44,204 nt of DNA from Acidobacteriaceae bacterium. GTDB lineage: Bacteria; Acidobacteriota; Terriglobia; Terriglobales; Acidobacteriaceae. The stretch is taken from positions 1 to 44,204 of the forward strand of contig JARLFY010000040.1 in assembly GCA_031296325.1 (NCBI GenBank), written 5' to 3'. The notes beneath the pieces are model-generated. The model was not told where the DNA came from. It saw only the letters and a program-made list of their open reading frames with translations, and made no database searches. Below, piece after piece: positions 33,451 through 38,460 of this stretch. The translations under genes and the position numbers were made by a program. Positions within the stretch are counted from its first letter, which is position 1. Each line of letters starts with the position of its first letter.

Positions 33451-35175
33451 ATGTTCTTTCGATTCTTCACCAAGCTCCGCGCCGCAGCCTTGCGACTCGC
33501 CACGCTGCGACTCCTCTCGCAGGTCTTCTTTCTTGCACTCTTCGTCTTCCTTCTGCTGCGCACGGAGTTTCGCGGCACAGTCGGCTCGGGCGGCGACGTA
33601 CGAATGCAGTGGCCGGTGGGACTCTTCTTCAAGATCGATCCGCTGGTCGCGCTTTCGAATGCGCTGGCGACTCATGCGCTCTATCGCGGCCTGCTGGCGA
33701 GCCTTCTGATCCTGCTCCCGGTCATGTTTCTGGGCCGCTTCTTCTGCGGATGGATCTGCCCGATGGGAACGATTCACCACTTCTTCGGCAACCTGAAGTC
33801 GGAGGCAAAGCGCGGCAAGCAAGGCATCGACGCCAATCGCTACAAGCCCTGGCAGCGCACGAAGTACGTCATCCTGCTGGCAGTGCTTGTGGCCGCACTG
33901 TTCGGCACGGGTCTGGTCGGGTGGTTCGATCCCTTCAGCCTGCTGGTGCGCTCGGTCGGGCTGTCGATCCTGCCCGGAGCGAACTACGCCGCCAACGCGC
34001 TGATAAACGCGATGGAACACAGCAACCTTGGCGCGGTGCAGTCGGCTGGAACATCGCTCCACGCGGCTCTGGCGGCGACCGTGCTGAGCTTCAAACAGCC
34101 GCACTTCCGTCAGGGAATTCTGCTGGGCCTGATCTTCCTCGTTCTGCTGGCGACCAACCTGCGCGTTACGCGATTCTGGTGCCGCGCGCTCTGTCCGCTG
34201 GGAGCGCTGCTGGGAGTCGCCTCGCGCTGGTCGATCCTCGGCCTGCACAAGGACGCGGCAACCTGCAACAAATGCAATCGCTGCCTGATGCACTGTCAGG
34301 GCGGCGACGACCCCATCGGCGGCGCGCCCTGGCACAAGGCCGAGTGTCTGATGTGCATGAACTGCGTGGACTCCTGCCCGCACCACAGCCTGCAATTCAA
34401 AGTCTTTCGCGCCGAGCCGGAGATTGTCGGCACGAACCTGCCGCGACGCAAGATGCTCACAGGGCTGGCGCTTGGTGCTGCTGCGGTACCTCTGCTGCGC
34501 GCCAACACAGCCCTCGGCAAGAGCCGCGACGAACACATGATCCGCCCGCCGGGAGCGCTCGACGAGACCGACTTTCTCTCGCGCTGCATTCGCTGCGGCG
34601 AGTGCATGAAGGTCTGCCCGACCAATGCGCTGCAACCGGCCTTCACCGAGGCAGGACTCGAAGGCATCTGGTCGCCCGTGTTGACGCCGCGCATCGGCTA
34701 CTGCGAACCAAGCTGCGTCCTGTGCAGCGAGGTCTGCCCTACCGGAGCGATCTGGAAGCTCACTCCGCGTAAAAAGGGCTGGGTCGTCGGCATAGGCGAG
34801 GCCAACGCGAGCGCGAGCGATGGCAATGCAAACGAGGCCGAAGCCAAGTCTGTGCGCCTTGGCACAGCCTTCTACGACCGAGGCCGCTGCCTGCCCTGGG
34901 CCATGGCCACCGATTGCATCGTCTGCGAGGAGTGGTGTCCGGTCTCGCCCAAGGCGATCTACCTGCAAGAGGTTCAGGTCGTTGATGCCGACGGAAATTT
35001 GAAACTTTTAAAGCAGCCGCACGTCGATCCTAGTAGATGCGTCGGTTGCGGAGCCTGCGAGTACGCCTGCCCGTTGCAGGAGCATCCCGCCGTCTATGTG
35101 ACTAGTATTGGAGAGAGCCGCTCGGTAGAGAGTCAAATTCTATTGAGCCGACGAAAGGCCAAGGCGCAGTCGTGA
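33451..35175 (+). CDS. NapH-NapG-like fused membrane polyferredoxin
   Basis: 574 residues. The first half is NapH-like: two helices (about 21-37, 75-95), CGWICP (99-104), more helices, CRALCP (244-249) and two ferredoxin clusters with Cys272/275/278/282 and 299/302/305/309. Then comes PRRKMLTGLALGAAAVPLLR (331-350), a twin-arginine-like signal or membrane stretch, and a NapG/MauM-like half with four more cysteine sets: 379/382/385/389, 418/422/425/429, 480/489/492/496, 530/533/536/540. So six [4Fe-4S] clusters are possible. NapH and NapG are usually separate proteins that take electrons from quinol to the periplasm. Start ATG 33451 is weakly supported; 33406 is an alternative. It probably supplies electrons to the DUF6599/DUF362 genes after it. 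Confidence 0.85.
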   Translation: MFFRFFTKLRAAALRLATLRLLSQVFFLALFVFLLLRTEFRGTVGSGGDVRMQWPVGLFFKIDPLVALSNALATHALYRGLLASLLILLPVMFLGRFFCGWICPMGTIHHFFGNLKSEAKRGKQGIDANRYKPWQRTKYVILLAVLVAALFGTGLVGWFDPFSLLVRSVGLSILPGANYAANALINAMEHSNLGAVQSAGTSLHAALAATVLSFKQPHFRQGILLGLIFLVLLATNLRVTRFWCRALCPLGALLGVASRWSILGLHKDAATCNKCNRCLMHCQGGDDPIGGAPWHKAECLMCMNCVDSCPHHSLQFKVFRAEPEIVGTNLPRRKMLTGLALGAAAVPLLRANTALGKSRDEHMIRPPGALDETDFLSRCIRCGECMKVCPTNALQPAFTEAGLEGIWSPVLTPRIGYCEPSCVLCSEVCPTGAIWKLTPRKKGWVVGIGEANASASDGNANEAEAKSVRLGTAFYDRGRCLPWAMATDCIVCEEWCPVSPKAIYLQEVQVVDADGNLKLLKQPHVDPSRCVGCGACEYACPLQEHPAVYVTSIGESRSVESQILLSRRKAKAQS

Positions 35176-35191
35176 TTGAACGCAACTGGAG

Positions 35192-35215
35192 CTTATTCAC
35201 TCCTGAGTGAATAAG
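35192..35215. terminator. Hairpin after the polyferredoxin gene
   Basis: CTTATTCACT, CCTG loop, AGTGAATAAG: a perfect 10-bp stem 16 bases after the stop. It is AT-rich with only TATTGT behind it, so it is a weak terminator or a regulatory site. A dispersed repeat follows at 35236. Confidence 0.45.
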
Positions 35216-35235
35216 TATTGTCCTTCAACTAATGA

Positions 35236-35323
35236 TTGTCATTCTGACACTGCACGAAGTACAGGGGAAGAATCCCCGCATTTTGTTCGCAGTGCGATAC
35301 TTTATACCATCGGAAACGATGCT
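35236..35323 (+). repeat. Dispersed GTCATTC element, copy F
   Basis: TTGTCATTCTGACACTGCAC followed by GGGGAAGAATCCCCGCATT and TTGTTCGCAGTGCGATACTT. The GGGG..CCCC sequence forms a short hairpin (GGGGAAGAATCCCC). It ends about 26 bases before the DUF6599 start, so it forms part of that gene's upstream region; copy E does the same at 28572. Confidence 0.7.
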
Positions 35324-35348
35324 TCTAAACGAGAAAAGGACAGACGGA

Positions 35349-35849
35349 ATGAGAAATATCATGCGATTTAAATTCGTCGCCATCGCAGCCCTGCTATCGC
35401 TGGTTGTGTTCGCGGGCGTGGGCTGCAAGAAGAAGATCGCCGATCCCTTCCCGGCGACCGGCGCTGTTACTGGCTGGGAGAAGGGCGACAAGACGCAGAC
35501 CTACGACGCAGCCAATCTCTTTCAGTACATCGACGGCGGTTCGGAGCAGTACATTAATGCGGGAGTCGTCGGCGTGGCCACCTCGGACTACAAATTTCAG
35601 GGCAACATCGAGGCGACTGTCGACGTCTACACCATGAAGTCCTCCGACGGCGCGAAGACGATCTTCGACTCCGACCCGCCCACCACCGACAGCAAGAGTG
35701 TTCCGTTAGGAGACGCCGGCCGCGCCTACGCGCAGAGCGTGGTCTTCCGCAAGGGAGCGCATCTGGTACGCATCACCGCCTTCGAGGCCGCCCCCGGCGA
35801 AGATGATGCTCTGCTGACCCTGGCCCACGCCATCGAGGGCAAGTTATAG
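35349..35849 (+). CDS. DUF6599 protein, probably a lipoprotein
   Basis: 166-residue exported protein. The N terminus MRNIMRFKFVAIAALLSLVV is a signal, followed by FAGVGCKKK where Cys is a possible lipid site; the residues before it are not a perfect lipobox. The conserved core AANLFQYIDGGSEQYINAGV is the family mark, followed by DVYTMKSSDGAKTIFDSD and later FRKGAHLVRITAFEA. Start taken at ATG 35349 because AAAGGA lies nine bases upstream. Function unknown. It is 52 bases before the first DUF362 gene and after the polyferredoxin, in the same order as in related acidobacteria as far as I know. Confidence 0.82.
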   Translation: MRNIMRFKFVAIAALLSLVVFAGVGCKKKIADPFPATGAVTGWEKGDKTQTYDAANLFQYIDGGSEQYINAGVVGVATSDYKFQGNIEATVDVYTMKSSDGAKTIFDSDPPTTDSKSVPLGDAGRAYAQSVVFRKGAHLVRITAFEAAPGEDDALLTLAHAIEGKL

Positions 35850-35900
35850 GAAGGTTGCTGAACAGGCAGCAAACAGAACTGGCATCACGGAGGATCGACA

Positions 35901-36896
35901 ATGCAGAACCGGCGTGAGTTCGTAAAAGAGGTTGTGGCAGGGGCCGCAGTTCTGGGCGCGAGTTCCCCGCTATCCCTTGCCGCAGCCAAGCCAGCGGCGG
36001 AGAAGTCGAAGGTCGTCATCGTGCGCGACGCCAAGCTGCGCACGACGGGCACGACGCCCGATCCAGTGCGCGTTGCCGCGCTGCTGGACCATGCGATGCA
36101 AAGTTACTTCGGCACGAAGAACCCGATCGATCCGTGGCGGCTCATTGTGCGCCCGGGCCAGACCGTCGGCCTCAAGGTGAACTGTCTGGGCCGCGCCCTC
36201 TCGCCCAACGTGGCGCTGGTGGCGGCCATCTGCGAGCGGCTACAGCAGGCTGGCATCAAGCCCGGCGACATCACGGTGTGGGATCGCAGCAGCCGCGACA
36301 TGCAGGCGGCGGGATTCAAGCTCTCGTCCACGCCGGGGGCTGTGCGCTACATCGCCTCGGACGCGCCCGGAGTGGGCTACGAGGATTCGCCCACCGTCTA
36401 CGGAACGGTCACCACGCACCTCGCTAAACTCCTCACCGGCAGCGACGTGATGATCAACCTGCCGGTGCTGAAGAATCACAATCTGGCCGGCGTCACCATG
36501 TCAATGAAGAACATGTACGGCGTCATCAACAATCCCAACGCGCTGCACGGCTCGGCCTGCAATCCCTACATCGCAGACCTCAACATGATTCCGCACATCC
36601 GTCAGAAGATGAAGTTCATCATCGGCGACATGATGACGGCGGTCTATGAGGGCGGGCCAACCTACAATCCGTCCTATGCATGGAACGAGAACGGCCTGAT
36701 CGTCGGCGAGGATCGCGTCGCCATCGACCACACCTGCGCGGGAATCGTCGAACGCAAGCGCGCCGAGAAGGGTCTGCCCACGCTCGCACAGAAGGGTACG
36801 CCGACCCATTACATCGAGACCGCCGCCGACACCAATCACCAGCTAGGCACCAACGATCCCGCGCGCATCTCTCTGATGGAACACAGCATAGCGTAG
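35901..36896 (+). CDS. Tat-exported DUF362 protein (first)
   Basis: 331 residues. The N terminus has NRREFVKEVVAGAAVLG, which fits a twin-arginine signal (RRxFxK), so the protein is folded before export. The DUF362 core has RPGQTVGLKVNCLGRALSPN, ITVWDRSSRDMQAAGF, NLPVLKNHNLAGVTMSMKNM with YGVINNPNALHG and the later DRVAIDHTCAGIVERKRAE. It has only scattered cysteines and no ferredoxin-type set, unlike some DUF362 members. A GGAGG site lies seven bases before the ATG. The gene is nine bases from a second DUF362 gene; they form one operon. Function unknown. Confidence 0.85.
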   Translation: MQNRREFVKEVVAGAAVLGASSPLSLAAAKPAAEKSKVVIVRDAKLRTTGTTPDPVRVAALLDHAMQSYFGTKNPIDPWRLIVRPGQTVGLKVNCLGRALSPNVALVAAICERLQQAGIKPGDITVWDRSSRDMQAAGFKLSSTPGAVRYIASDAPGVGYEDSPTVYGTVTTHLAKLLTGSDVMINLPVLKNHNLAGVTMSMKNMYGVINNPNALHGSACNPYIADLNMIPHIRQKMKFIIGDMMTAVYEGGPTYNPSYAWNENGLIVGEDRVAIDHTCAGIVERKRAEKGLPTLAQKGTPTHYIETAADTNHQLGTNDPARISLMEHSIA

Positions 36897-36905
36897 GAGG
36901 CGACG

Positions 36906-37958
36906 ATGAATCCCGAAGATCCGGCGACTGACAATTCGGCTCATGCAAACGCTGCAACCTCCACGTCTTCAGCGCCGACCGCACTGGACTGCATGACCCG
37001 GCGCGATGCGATGCTACAGTTGCTGCGCGTGACTGGCGCAGGAATGGCGACAGCGGCGGCGGCGCTCTGGCTCTCGCAAAACAGCGCCCGACCCGCCTCC
37101 ACCACGGCGGCCAACGTGCGTCGCGACCACACCGTCGAACCCAACGCCGCTCTACCGGAGATGGTCGTCGTGCAGGGCAACGATCCCCGCGCCATGGTTG
37201 CGCGCGCCTTCGCCGATCTGGGCGGAGTCAGCCGCTTCATCGCGCACGGAGACCATGTCGTTCTCAAGCCCAACATCGCCTGGGATCGCACCCCGGAGCA
37301 GGCCGCCAACACCAATCCCGACGTGGTCGCCGAGGTGGTCAAGCAGTGCTGGCAGGCCGGAGCCAAGCGCGTCATCGTCACCGACGTCAGTTGCAACGAC
37401 GCCGAGCGCTGCTTCCACCGCTCGGGCATCGCCGCCGCCGCGCGCGCTGAGGGAGCCGAAGTCATTCTGCCCGATCTCGCTCGCTTCCGCGAGGTCAATC
37501 TTGGCGGCGAGATCCTACAAAGCTGGCCCGTCTTCGAGCCATTCCTCGGCGCCGACAAGGTCATCAATCTGCCTATCGCCAAACATCACGGCCTCACCGG
37601 AGCCACCCTCGGCTTCAAGAACTGGTACGGCATTCTGGGCGGGGAACGCAACCGCCTGCACCAGCAGATTCACCAGAGCCTCGTCGATCTAGCCGCGTTC
37701 ATGCTGCCCACGCTCACCCTGATCGACTGCTACCGCGTCCTGCTGCGCAACGGCCCCACTGGAGGCAATCTGGAAGACGTCGCCCTGCACAAGACGCTGG
37801 TCGCAGGAACCGACCCGGTCGCGCTGGACGCCTACGTTGCCAAGGCTTACTGGAATATCGAGGCCTCCGCCCTGCCCTACCTGCAACTGGCCGAGCGTCG
37901 CGGTCTGGGACGCGCAGACTTCGAACACCTCCGCACCAAATTCAGCCAATCTGCATGA
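36906..37958 (+). CDS. Tat-exported DUF362 protein (second)
   Basis: 350 residues, distantly similar to the gene before it. After 29 mostly polar residues comes DCMTRRDAMLQLLRVTGAG with hydrophobic TAAAALWLS behind it, consistent with a twin-arginine signal. The core shows GDHVVLKPNIAWDRTPEQAA, TNPDVVAEVVKQCW, NLPIAKHHGLTGATLGFKNW, YGILGGERNRLHQ and DPVALDAYVAKAYW. The LPxxKxHxLTGxTLGFKN block is shared with the first protein. No ferredoxin cysteines. TAGGAGGCG site before the ATG, nine bases after the first stop. The pair may form a heteromer that takes electrons from the polyferredoxin; this is inference. Confidence 0.83.
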   Translation: MNPEDPATDNSAHANAATSTSSAPTALDCMTRRDAMLQLLRVTGAGMATAAAALWLSQNSARPASTTAANVRRDHTVEPNAALPEMVVVQGNDPRAMVARAFADLGGVSRFIAHGDHVVLKPNIAWDRTPEQAANTNPDVVAEVVKQCWQAGAKRVIVTDVSCNDAERCFHRSGIAAAARAEGAEVILPDLARFREVNLGGEILQSWPVFEPFLGADKVINLPIAKHHGLTGATLGFKNWYGILGGERNRLHQQIHQSLVDLAAFMLPTLTLIDCYRVLLRNGPTGGNLEDVALHKTLVAGTDPVALDAYVAKAYWNIEASALPYLQLAERRGLGRADFEHLRTKFSQSA

Positions 37959-38078
37959 TATTCATAGCGAATAGGTTGCTGCTGGAATATTGGTAATGAA
38001 GTGTTTATCGAGAAACGTGGGCTAGGCGGTATCGACATATAGTTCTTTTGTGATTGCAGTTGTCCTTGCTTGTTTTTG

Positions 38079-38175
38079 TTTGTCATTCCGCAGCCTTTTG
38101 TTTGTCATTCCGCAGCGCAGCGGAGGAATCTGGTTTGTTGTTCGCGCCACGGGGATCTATCCCCATGGTAAAAAT
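38079..38175 (+). repeat. Dispersed GTCATTC element, copy G (doubled head)
   Basis: Head TTTGTCATTCCGCAG occurs twice, 22 bases apart, then CGCAGCGGAGGAATCTGG and TTGTTGTTCGCGCCACGG. It ends near GTAAAAATGCT, which matches the end of copy E. Confidence 0.65.
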
Positions 38176-38180
38176 GCTAT

Positions 38181-38252
38181 AAAGACAACCGAAACTGAAA
38201 AGACAACCGCAACGGAAAAGACAACCGCAAGGGAAAAGACAACCGCAACGGC
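38181..38252 (+). repeat. 18-bp tandem repeat, four units
   Basis: Four consecutive units starting AAAGACAACCGCAACGGA, with changes: the first has GAAACTGA, the third GCAAGGGA, the last ends in C. It lies exactly between inverted copies G and H of the dispersed element. No promoter or gene relation is evident. Confidence 0.75.
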
Positions 38253-38261
38253 AAAAGCAGA

Positions 38262-38335
38262 TGCCGCCGCGGCGCTGCGGAATGACAAAAAAAGACGCTA
38301 CGGGATGGCAAACAAATGGCTGCGGAATGACAAAA
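38262..38335 (-). repeat. Dispersed GTCATTC element, copy H (tripled head)
   Basis: Read on the minus strand it has TTTGTCATTCCGCAGCCATT at one end and another TTTGTCATTCCGCAGC nearer the array, with a third diverged one between. Head and mirror image of copy G across the tandem array. Confidence 0.6.
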
Positions 38336-38460
38336 GAGAGGCAACAGCAGCGTCGCAAAGCAACGTGTATATGTCGATACGACCTCGGAGGCGCTCACTC
38401 CAGATGACAATCTAACGTCTCGATCACAAGAGTGAAAACGCTTAAATAACCTCCTGTCTC

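Follow-up and report, generated by a model that had tools for sequence, protein, structure and literature searches.

A conserved polyferredoxin and DUF362 gene cluster from an Acidobacteriaceae genome bin, with predicted LarA-like DUF362 proteins carrying twin-arginine signals

We analyzed a DNA stretch of 44,204 nucleotides from an Acidobacteriaceae bacterium (contig JARLFY010000040.1), here called the window, and in it a cluster of four genes for a membrane polyferredoxin, a DUF6599 protein and two DUF362 proteins (DUF362-A and DUF362-B). The window is contig C68 of genome bin G000, which comprises 2.6 Mb in 94 contigs and is 88.8% complete. All four genes lie on the forward strand in the order polyferredoxin, DUF6599, DUF362-A, DUF362-B, with intergenic gaps of 173, 51 and 9 bp. 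Shine-Dalgarno-like stretches, judged by eye, precede the last three, and the two DUF362 genes are the only members of their family in the bin. An earlier interpretation of the same DNA from its letters alone (the sequence-only reading) had given the coordinates and contents of the genes correctly, as profile matches to all four confirmed.

The first gene (33451 to 35175) encodes a protein of 574 amino acids in which NapH-like and NapG-like parts are fused. It matched the NapH and NapG models (NF007013, 2.4e-27; NF007012, 9.6e-28), with scores below the curated NCBIfam cut-offs for NapG/NapH (97 bits against 269 and 95.8 against 234). The membrane part has two CX3CP motifs; together with six [4Fe-4S] motifs these supply 28 cysteines, all of them invariant in 20 aligned orthologues. 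In the same 20 rows an Arg-Arg pair between the two parts (residues 332-333, positions 34444 to 34449) is invariant and is followed by a moderately hydrophobic stretch, suggesting that a step of the twin-arginine translocation (Tat) type probably carries the NapG-like part into the periplasm. The CX3CP motifs, the membrane part, the [4Fe-4S] motifs and the profile matches are shared with the quinol-type ferredoxins NapG/NapH and MauM/MauN; the polyferredoxin differs from these in combining both parts in one chain, in its scores below the cut-offs, and in its DUF362 partner. NapGH connects to quinones. The sequence-only description of a membrane polyferredoxin of quinol type able to hold six Fe-S clusters was upheld.

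The DUF6599 protein (PF20244, 3.4e-14) likely starts at position 35349 rather than at 35232, since AAAAGGA lies upstream of the former. Read from there to 35849, it has 166 amino acids and a lipobox-like AGVGC, suggesting a lipoprotein. Its AlphaFold model (predicted local distance difference test, pLDDT, 91.5) resembles the PknH extracellular domain (Z 12.2, root-mean-square deviation, rmsd, 2.8 over 126 residues) and other envelope proteins; no Foldseek E value fell below 1.2e-3, and we draw no function from the resemblance. A sequence search up to E 1 found no solved relatives, and the open-access literature searched makes no mention of DUF6599. A second, longer DUF6599 frame (405 codons) is present elsewhere in the bin (G000:C43:12520-13032), and a similar part of the profile was matched in most of the same-genus genomes searched.

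DUF362-A (35901 to 36896) and DUF362-B (36906 to 37958) both pass the PF04015 gathering score of 24 bits (3.4e-22 and 79.9 bits; 1e-49 and 169.8 bits). The best NCBIfam match of DUF362-B was the Npun_F2552 family (NF052623, 9.6e-19), by its match a DUF362 subfamily, to which DUF362-B scored 67.9 bits, far below the cut-off of 500. The Pfam scan detected no ferredoxin domain in either protein, in agreement with the earlier remark that they lack ferredoxin cysteines of their own. A sequence search for solved relatives of DUF362-B returned a single match at chance level (E 0.69). A twin arginine is at least 90% conserved in both (R4 and R5 of DUF362-A, 14 rows; R32 and R33 of DUF362-B, 35 rows). 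A scan of N-termini for a twin arginine followed by a hydrophobic stretch was positive for 67 of 75 DUF362-B-type and 31 of 45 DUF362-A-type proteins, against about 4% of shuffled sequences; in most of the DUF362-A negatives the RR pair is visible by eye. With the NCBIfam Tat model, DUF362-A scored 13.1 bits (cut-off 16.7) and DUF362-B was not listed, so the case for Tat rests on the conservation of the arginines and on the dedicated scan. Both proteins are probably exported by this route, and the twin-arginine-like signals of the sequence-only reading hold in this sense. The available parts of three papers assign no function to DUF362 (PMC11770544, PMC10892978, PMC5742341), and one of these papers places it in Pfam clan CL0471 together with the LarA family PF09861 (PMC11770544). 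The family does not occur in the available portions of a further paper (PMC12611868).

Conservation of the cluster was assessed in 80 named loci, the best 80 of at least 568 relatives found in a scan with the polyferredoxin alignment, and in a class sample of 299 genomes, in which polyferredoxin carriers were called at E 1e-40. Altogether 105 polyferredoxin stretches of about 4 to 22 kb were fetched, including four pairs that are the same DNA. A DUF362-B relative was present in 67 of the 80 named loci, in many phyla; its distance to the polyferredoxin gene is at most 300 bp in 48 of them and at most 1.5 kb in 51. All DUF362-B genes counted within 2.5 kb were on the same strand as the polyferredoxin gene (42 upstream, 22 downstream). 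Four of the 13 loci without DUF362-B hold DUF362-A, three with wide flanks (L174, L175, L181) hold neither, and others are cut short by contig ends. Going by record titles, the DUF362-B/polyferredoxin pair is found in Acidobacteria, Calditrichaeota, Zixibacteria, Bacteroidetes, Ignavibacteria, Nitrospinae, Nitrospirae, Deltaproteobacteria, Polyangiaceae, Krumholzibacteriia, Aminicenantes, Hydrogenedentes, FCPU426 and Phycisphaerae. The exact four-gene order recurs in 12 of the 80 named loci (L157-L164, L166, L167, L169, L177), whose titles all place them in Acidobacteriota. It is also present in the fetched stretches L089-L093, L123 and L124 (L091 and L157 are the same DNA, as are L124 and L177). 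In the class sample the polyferredoxin was found in 25 genomes, all 25 of which have DUF362, compared with 178 of 299 overall.

The module is therefore real and widespread, and the sequence-only proposal, which would have failed if the genes rarely occurred together elsewhere, stands in this respect. The four members are not on an equal footing. DUF362-B and the polyferredoxin form the widespread core; DUF6599 is present in 34 and DUF362-A in 23 of the 80 loci. We rejected DUF6599 as a core component on this count, and also because it has matches in 52 of 61 relatives, though few genomes of the class carry the polyferredoxin. Clustering of other neighbors outside Acidobacteriota gave no convincing conserved gene: the largest cluster (12 loci) was spread over varied positions and resembled a multi-domain sensor, and most others were, on our reading, apparently antisense. 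The respiratory link that had been argued from the nearby ccm and caa3 genes was likewise rejected, since tblastn at E 1e-10 found ccm/cox homologues in only one of the 105 stretches (cox, L102).

A clue to DUF362 function came from structure. All 19 Foldseek matches at E <0.001 of the DUF362-B AlphaFold model (35-row alignment, pLDDT 89.8, predicted template modelling score, pTM, 0.82) belonged to the LarA/malate racemase family. Structure comparison returned 12 LarA-family entries at Z 15.2-17.7, the highest being 7s91 (rmsd 2.8, 204 residues), and the next other fold at Z 5.5. The matched region, residues ~34-265 of 7s91, is the N-terminal domain that holds the cofactor. The Pfam scan gave no Lar_N match in the DUF362 proteins. 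In profile comparisons with LarA, DUF362-A-type proteins reached E 2.8e-5 over 207 columns and both types together E 8.7e-4 over 164; these scores are modest overall, and the controls (five other families and a reversed profile) aligned over just 15-38 columns.

According to the accessible part of one paper, K184, R75 and H200 of LarA hold the nickel-pincer nucleotide (NPN), which accepts the hydride, and H108 and H174 are the catalytic bases (PMC11770544). Our LarA alignment from related genomes (8 rows) has R73, H108, H174, K184 and H200 invariant; its R73 was taken as R75 of LarA1 from an alignment of these rows to LarA. By hhalign, DUF362-B residues R128 (37287 to 37289), H228 (37587 to 37589), K238 (37617 to 37619) and H252 (37659 to 37661) fall on R73, H174, K184 and H200, and DUF362-A residues H193 (36477 to 36479) and K203 (36507 to 36509) on H174 and K184, the latter being the NPN tether. 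All 134 DUF362 rows have His and Lys at the H174 and K184 equivalents. At the R75 equivalent, all 88 DUF362-B-type rows have Arg, and 41 of 46 DUF362-A-type rows have either Arg (30) or Lys (11). The His at H252 of DUF362-B and H216 of DUF362-A is conserved in 133 of 133. Five MAFFT runs, which used 51 of the 134 rows, agreed with the placement of H174 in all five, of K184 and R75 in four each, of H200 in one and of H108 in none. A K-x-H...KN...H motif was found in 36 of 38 DUF362 open frames from other loci of the class, some of them copies of the present cluster. The comparisons thus support one catalytic base and two of the three residues that hold NPN; one ligand, the nickel ligand H200 with H252 as its possible and aligner-dependent equivalent, is uncertain, and the other base is absent. 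NPN binding by DUF362 remains a prediction, though a supported one. DUF362 shares with LarA, the nickel-dependent 2-hydroxyacid racemases, the fold of the N-terminal domain and the equivalents of K184, R75 and H174, with larBCE neighbors in relatives, but differs in having no Lar_N match, no H108 and no C-terminal domain, and in having a Tat signal and a polyferredoxin partner. One LarA homologue (L280, G098:C228) begins with a twin-arginine stretch itself (NRRQFLGQASRLG...), suggesting that export of LarA-like proteins may not be confined to DUF362.

The genes for NPN synthesis lie beside the cluster in some relatives. In 12 fetched loci (11 distinct, 9 among the 80 named), larE, larC and larB are located upstream of the polyferredoxin gene on the same strand, at distances of 114-1485 bp; the 11 distinct loci are all from Acidobacteriota. 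The proteins of L091 and L093 pass the LarE, LarC and LarB cut-offs, and the others were identified by tblastn with 67-100% identity to those of L091. A tblastn search of the 105 polyferredoxin stretches with 8 LarAs (E 1e-8) found no LarA. Of the genomes in which LarC adjoins the cluster, G239 and G245, both with the larECB operon, gave no LarA match anywhere in the genome, and G222 has both. LarC was found in 23 of the 25 carriers in the class, in the two same-genus carriers (G017, G034) and in 42 of 50 carriers reached via the named loci. Five of 14 control genomes have DUF362, four of these with LarC (the exception is Bacteroides ihuae); LarC but no DUF362 was seen in another two. The combination of DUF362 and LarC with no LarA occurs in Synechococcus elongatus and Haloferax volcanii. 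As far as the available text of a 2024 paper goes, larBEC is present and larA absent in about 15% of the genomes surveyed, many cyanobacteria among them, and the NPN user in such genomes is yet to be identified and expected by the authors to have a fold distinct from LarA (PMC11796402). The accessible part of a Haloferax survey likewise noted larBCE and a possible unknown nickel-pincer enzyme (PMC8305020). In the portions of the literature covered, NPN serves only LarA-type racemases and epimerases (PMC11770544, PMC11796402, PMC7583248, PMC12611868).

A further association concerns the AmmeMemoRadiSam families. In many relatives the cluster is joined, at the same locus or elsewhere in the genome, by a radical S-adenosylmethionine (SAM) enzyme (TIGR04337), a MEMO-AMMECR1 fusion (TIGR04336 and TIGR04335) and a spermidine-synthase-like membrane protein; the copies checked meet the TIGR04335, TIGR04336 and TIGR04337 cut-offs. 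This cluster type differs from canonical AmmeMemoRadiSam in its signals. A twin-arginine signal was scored in 30 of 33 cluster-type radical SAM enzymes, mostly from Acidobacteriota (shuffled sequences 2.9%), against none of 14 canonical copies, and in 14 of 24 additional copies from other carriers. The CX3CX2C motif is intact in 36 of 37, the exception being truncated, and all 32 MEMO-AMMECR1 fusions have a hydrophobic, signal-like N-terminus. The cluster-type enzyme was present in 20 of 25 polyferredoxin carriers and 4 of 274 non-carriers, with 270 genomes having neither (Fisher p 7.5e-23, not corrected for lineage). The set behind these counts was chosen by score range and neighborhoods; it includes the G000 copy, whose Tat signal is unclear, leaves out G277 (a canonical-like fragment) and G226 (fragments), and counts the divergent G058, G067 and G075 apart. 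With these three included the table reads 21, 4, 6, 268. TIGR04337 as a whole was found in 46 of 50 carriers reached via named loci, compared with 170 of 299 class genomes. Among the 30 fetched loci L237-L266, 11, from several phyla (L244, L245, L250, L251, L255, L256, L259, L260, L263, L265, L266), have DUF362-A next to the Tat radical SAM gene; DUF362-A is the member more closely tied to the radical SAM set. In the bin of the window, the genes for the radical SAM enzyme and MEMO-AMMECR1 lie on a different contig (C2:2203-4942), where no DUF362 or spermidine-synthase-like gene was found beside them. A periplasmic or exported radical SAM enzyme is not mentioned in the open-access literature searched.

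Two variants of this set were also seen. L141-L144 (G095, G124, G286, G187) hold the exported-type radical SAM enzyme, MEMO-AMMECR1 and the spermidine-synthase-like protein together with no adjacent DUF362-A; as these genomes lack a polyferredoxin match, the set can exist alone. In L246, L248, L249, L252, L253, L254 and L264, a signal-like MEMO-AMMECR1 stands beside a radical SAM enzyme without a signal, so that the compartments of the two would not match.

Our preferred interpretation, for which we see an even chance, is that the four genes specify a redox module outside the cytoplasm, based on LarA-like, NPN-dependent DUF362 proteins that leave through Tat and are connected to quinones. The cofactor, NPN or a closely related molecule, is made in the cytoplasm and would bind DUF362-A and DUF362-B there on the conserved Lys, and the loaded proteins would be exported in folded form. 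Proteins pass through Tat already folded and loaded with cofactor, and this would account for the use of the route by a LarA-like protein. On the periplasmic side the cofactor would exchange hydride with a substrate. The LarA lid domain is lacking, so the site would be open and electrons could pass to or from the polyferredoxin and then the quinone pool. By analogy with NapGH, the polyferredoxin would be the obvious redox partner of DUF362-B and its connection to quinones. The DUF6599 protein may be a periplasmic lipoprotein helper, perhaps in substrate binding. The sequence-only reading had anticipated the module, the quinol-type polyferredoxin and the twin-arginine DUF362 proteins; its argument from location fell away, and it had not recognized the LarA-like fold, the larECB operons or the AmmeMemoRadiSam partners.

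Several observations weigh against NPN dependence. DUF362-B has no counterpart of the LarA C-terminal domain: the match stops near residue 265 of about 400, and the protein ends about 30 residues further on. The LarA H108 column contains no conserved His in DUF362 by hhalign or MAFFT. The match of H252 to H200 comes only from hhalign on DUF362-B-type proteins and one of the five MAFFT runs, hhalign does not put H216 of DUF362-A on H200, and K184 and R75 were each misaligned in the MAFFT run with DUF362-B-type proteins only. The profile of these proteins alone gave E 0.0048, no better than an aldo/keto reductase control (E 0.0055), the two differing in aligned length alone (239 against 34 columns). 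Outside Acidobacteriota there is one linked locus (Hydrogenedentes, L235), with LarC and LarB 1.4 kb downstream on the other strand. LarC is found in 258 of 299 class genomes regardless, so that genome-level co-occurrence with DUF362 says little, and we rejected it as proof; the odds ratio for DUF362 and LarC is 3.8, and 13 of 178 DUF362 genomes have no LarC. Among 122 genomes with LarC and no LarA, 64 have no DUF362 match, suggesting that yet another NPN user or role may exist. LarA was found elsewhere in the genome of 24 of 44 carriers searched, and NPN there could serve LarA. The main gap is in the bin itself, in which a search for LarC and LarE found no LarC and no LarE above the cut-off. 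The incompleteness of the bin could explain this, as all 28 other same-genus genomes in the class sample have LarC. A weak LarE-like match (44.5 bits, cut-off 150) at positions 396-593 of the window, reverse strand, lies in a 539-codon open frame that is probably, at a guess, another ATP-pyrophosphatase-type protein.

The AmmeMemoRadiSam association suggests a different role, in which the module is the electron supply or partner of an exported AmmeMemoRadiSam system, the polyferredoxin feeding the Tat radical SAM enzyme and the DUF362 proteins acting as substrates, carriers or assembly factors without NPN. The distinct, mostly Tat-bearing enzyme in 20 of 25 carriers, its near absence from non-carriers, the high share of TIGR04337 in carriers reached via named loci, the single-locus arrangements that unite the genes and the adjacency of DUF362-A in several phyla all speak for such a role. 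We nevertheless consider it unlikely, as many carriers outside Acidobacteriota show just DUF362-B and the polyferredoxin in the fetched stretch, 10 of 24 non-canonical radical SAM copies outside Acidobacteriota scanned without a Tat signal, and the copy in the bin of the window has no clear one either. Moreover, G147, G242 and G245 have the cluster and no TIGR04337 match at E 1e-20, and a source of S-adenosylmethionine outside the cytoplasm would be left unexplained.

Alternatively, DUF362 may be a LarA fold with another ligand or metal, and the module an ordinary periplasmic oxidoreductase of the NapGH type. The absence of H108, of the C-terminal domain and of a certain nickel ligand would fit this, as would the failure to find larC and larE in the bin, but the conserved equivalents of the NPN-tether Lys and the phosphate Arg and the larA-less larECB operons would then be coincidence, and we regard this explanation as improbable. 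That the genes are a chance neighborhood of unrelated exported proteins in one metagenome bin might be suggested by the occurrence of the polyferredoxin in a minority of the class (25 of 299), but is refuted by the conserved order and pairing described above (12 and 67 of 80 loci) and is exceedingly improbable.

More tentatively, DUF362 could be the missing NPN user in LarA-less genomes that make NPN, and the module the first NPN system with net extracytoplasmic redox chemistry, wired to quinones and partly operating alongside the first exported radical SAM system. As a widespread family with no assigned function, a LarA-like fold, equivalents of cofactor residues and larECB operons, DUF362 makes the question of the NPN user directly testable. 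Should electrons leave NPN for the polyferredoxin, the cofactor would gain a respiratory role; a radical SAM enzyme with Tat signals would be a further unexpected finding.

Downstream of the cluster, repetitive sequence (GCAGCGGAGGAATCTG and purine-rich units) at positions 38050-38420 of the window is alike to that at G000:C2:1-200 (L137). Compared by eye, the shared sequence looks like a dispersed repeat.

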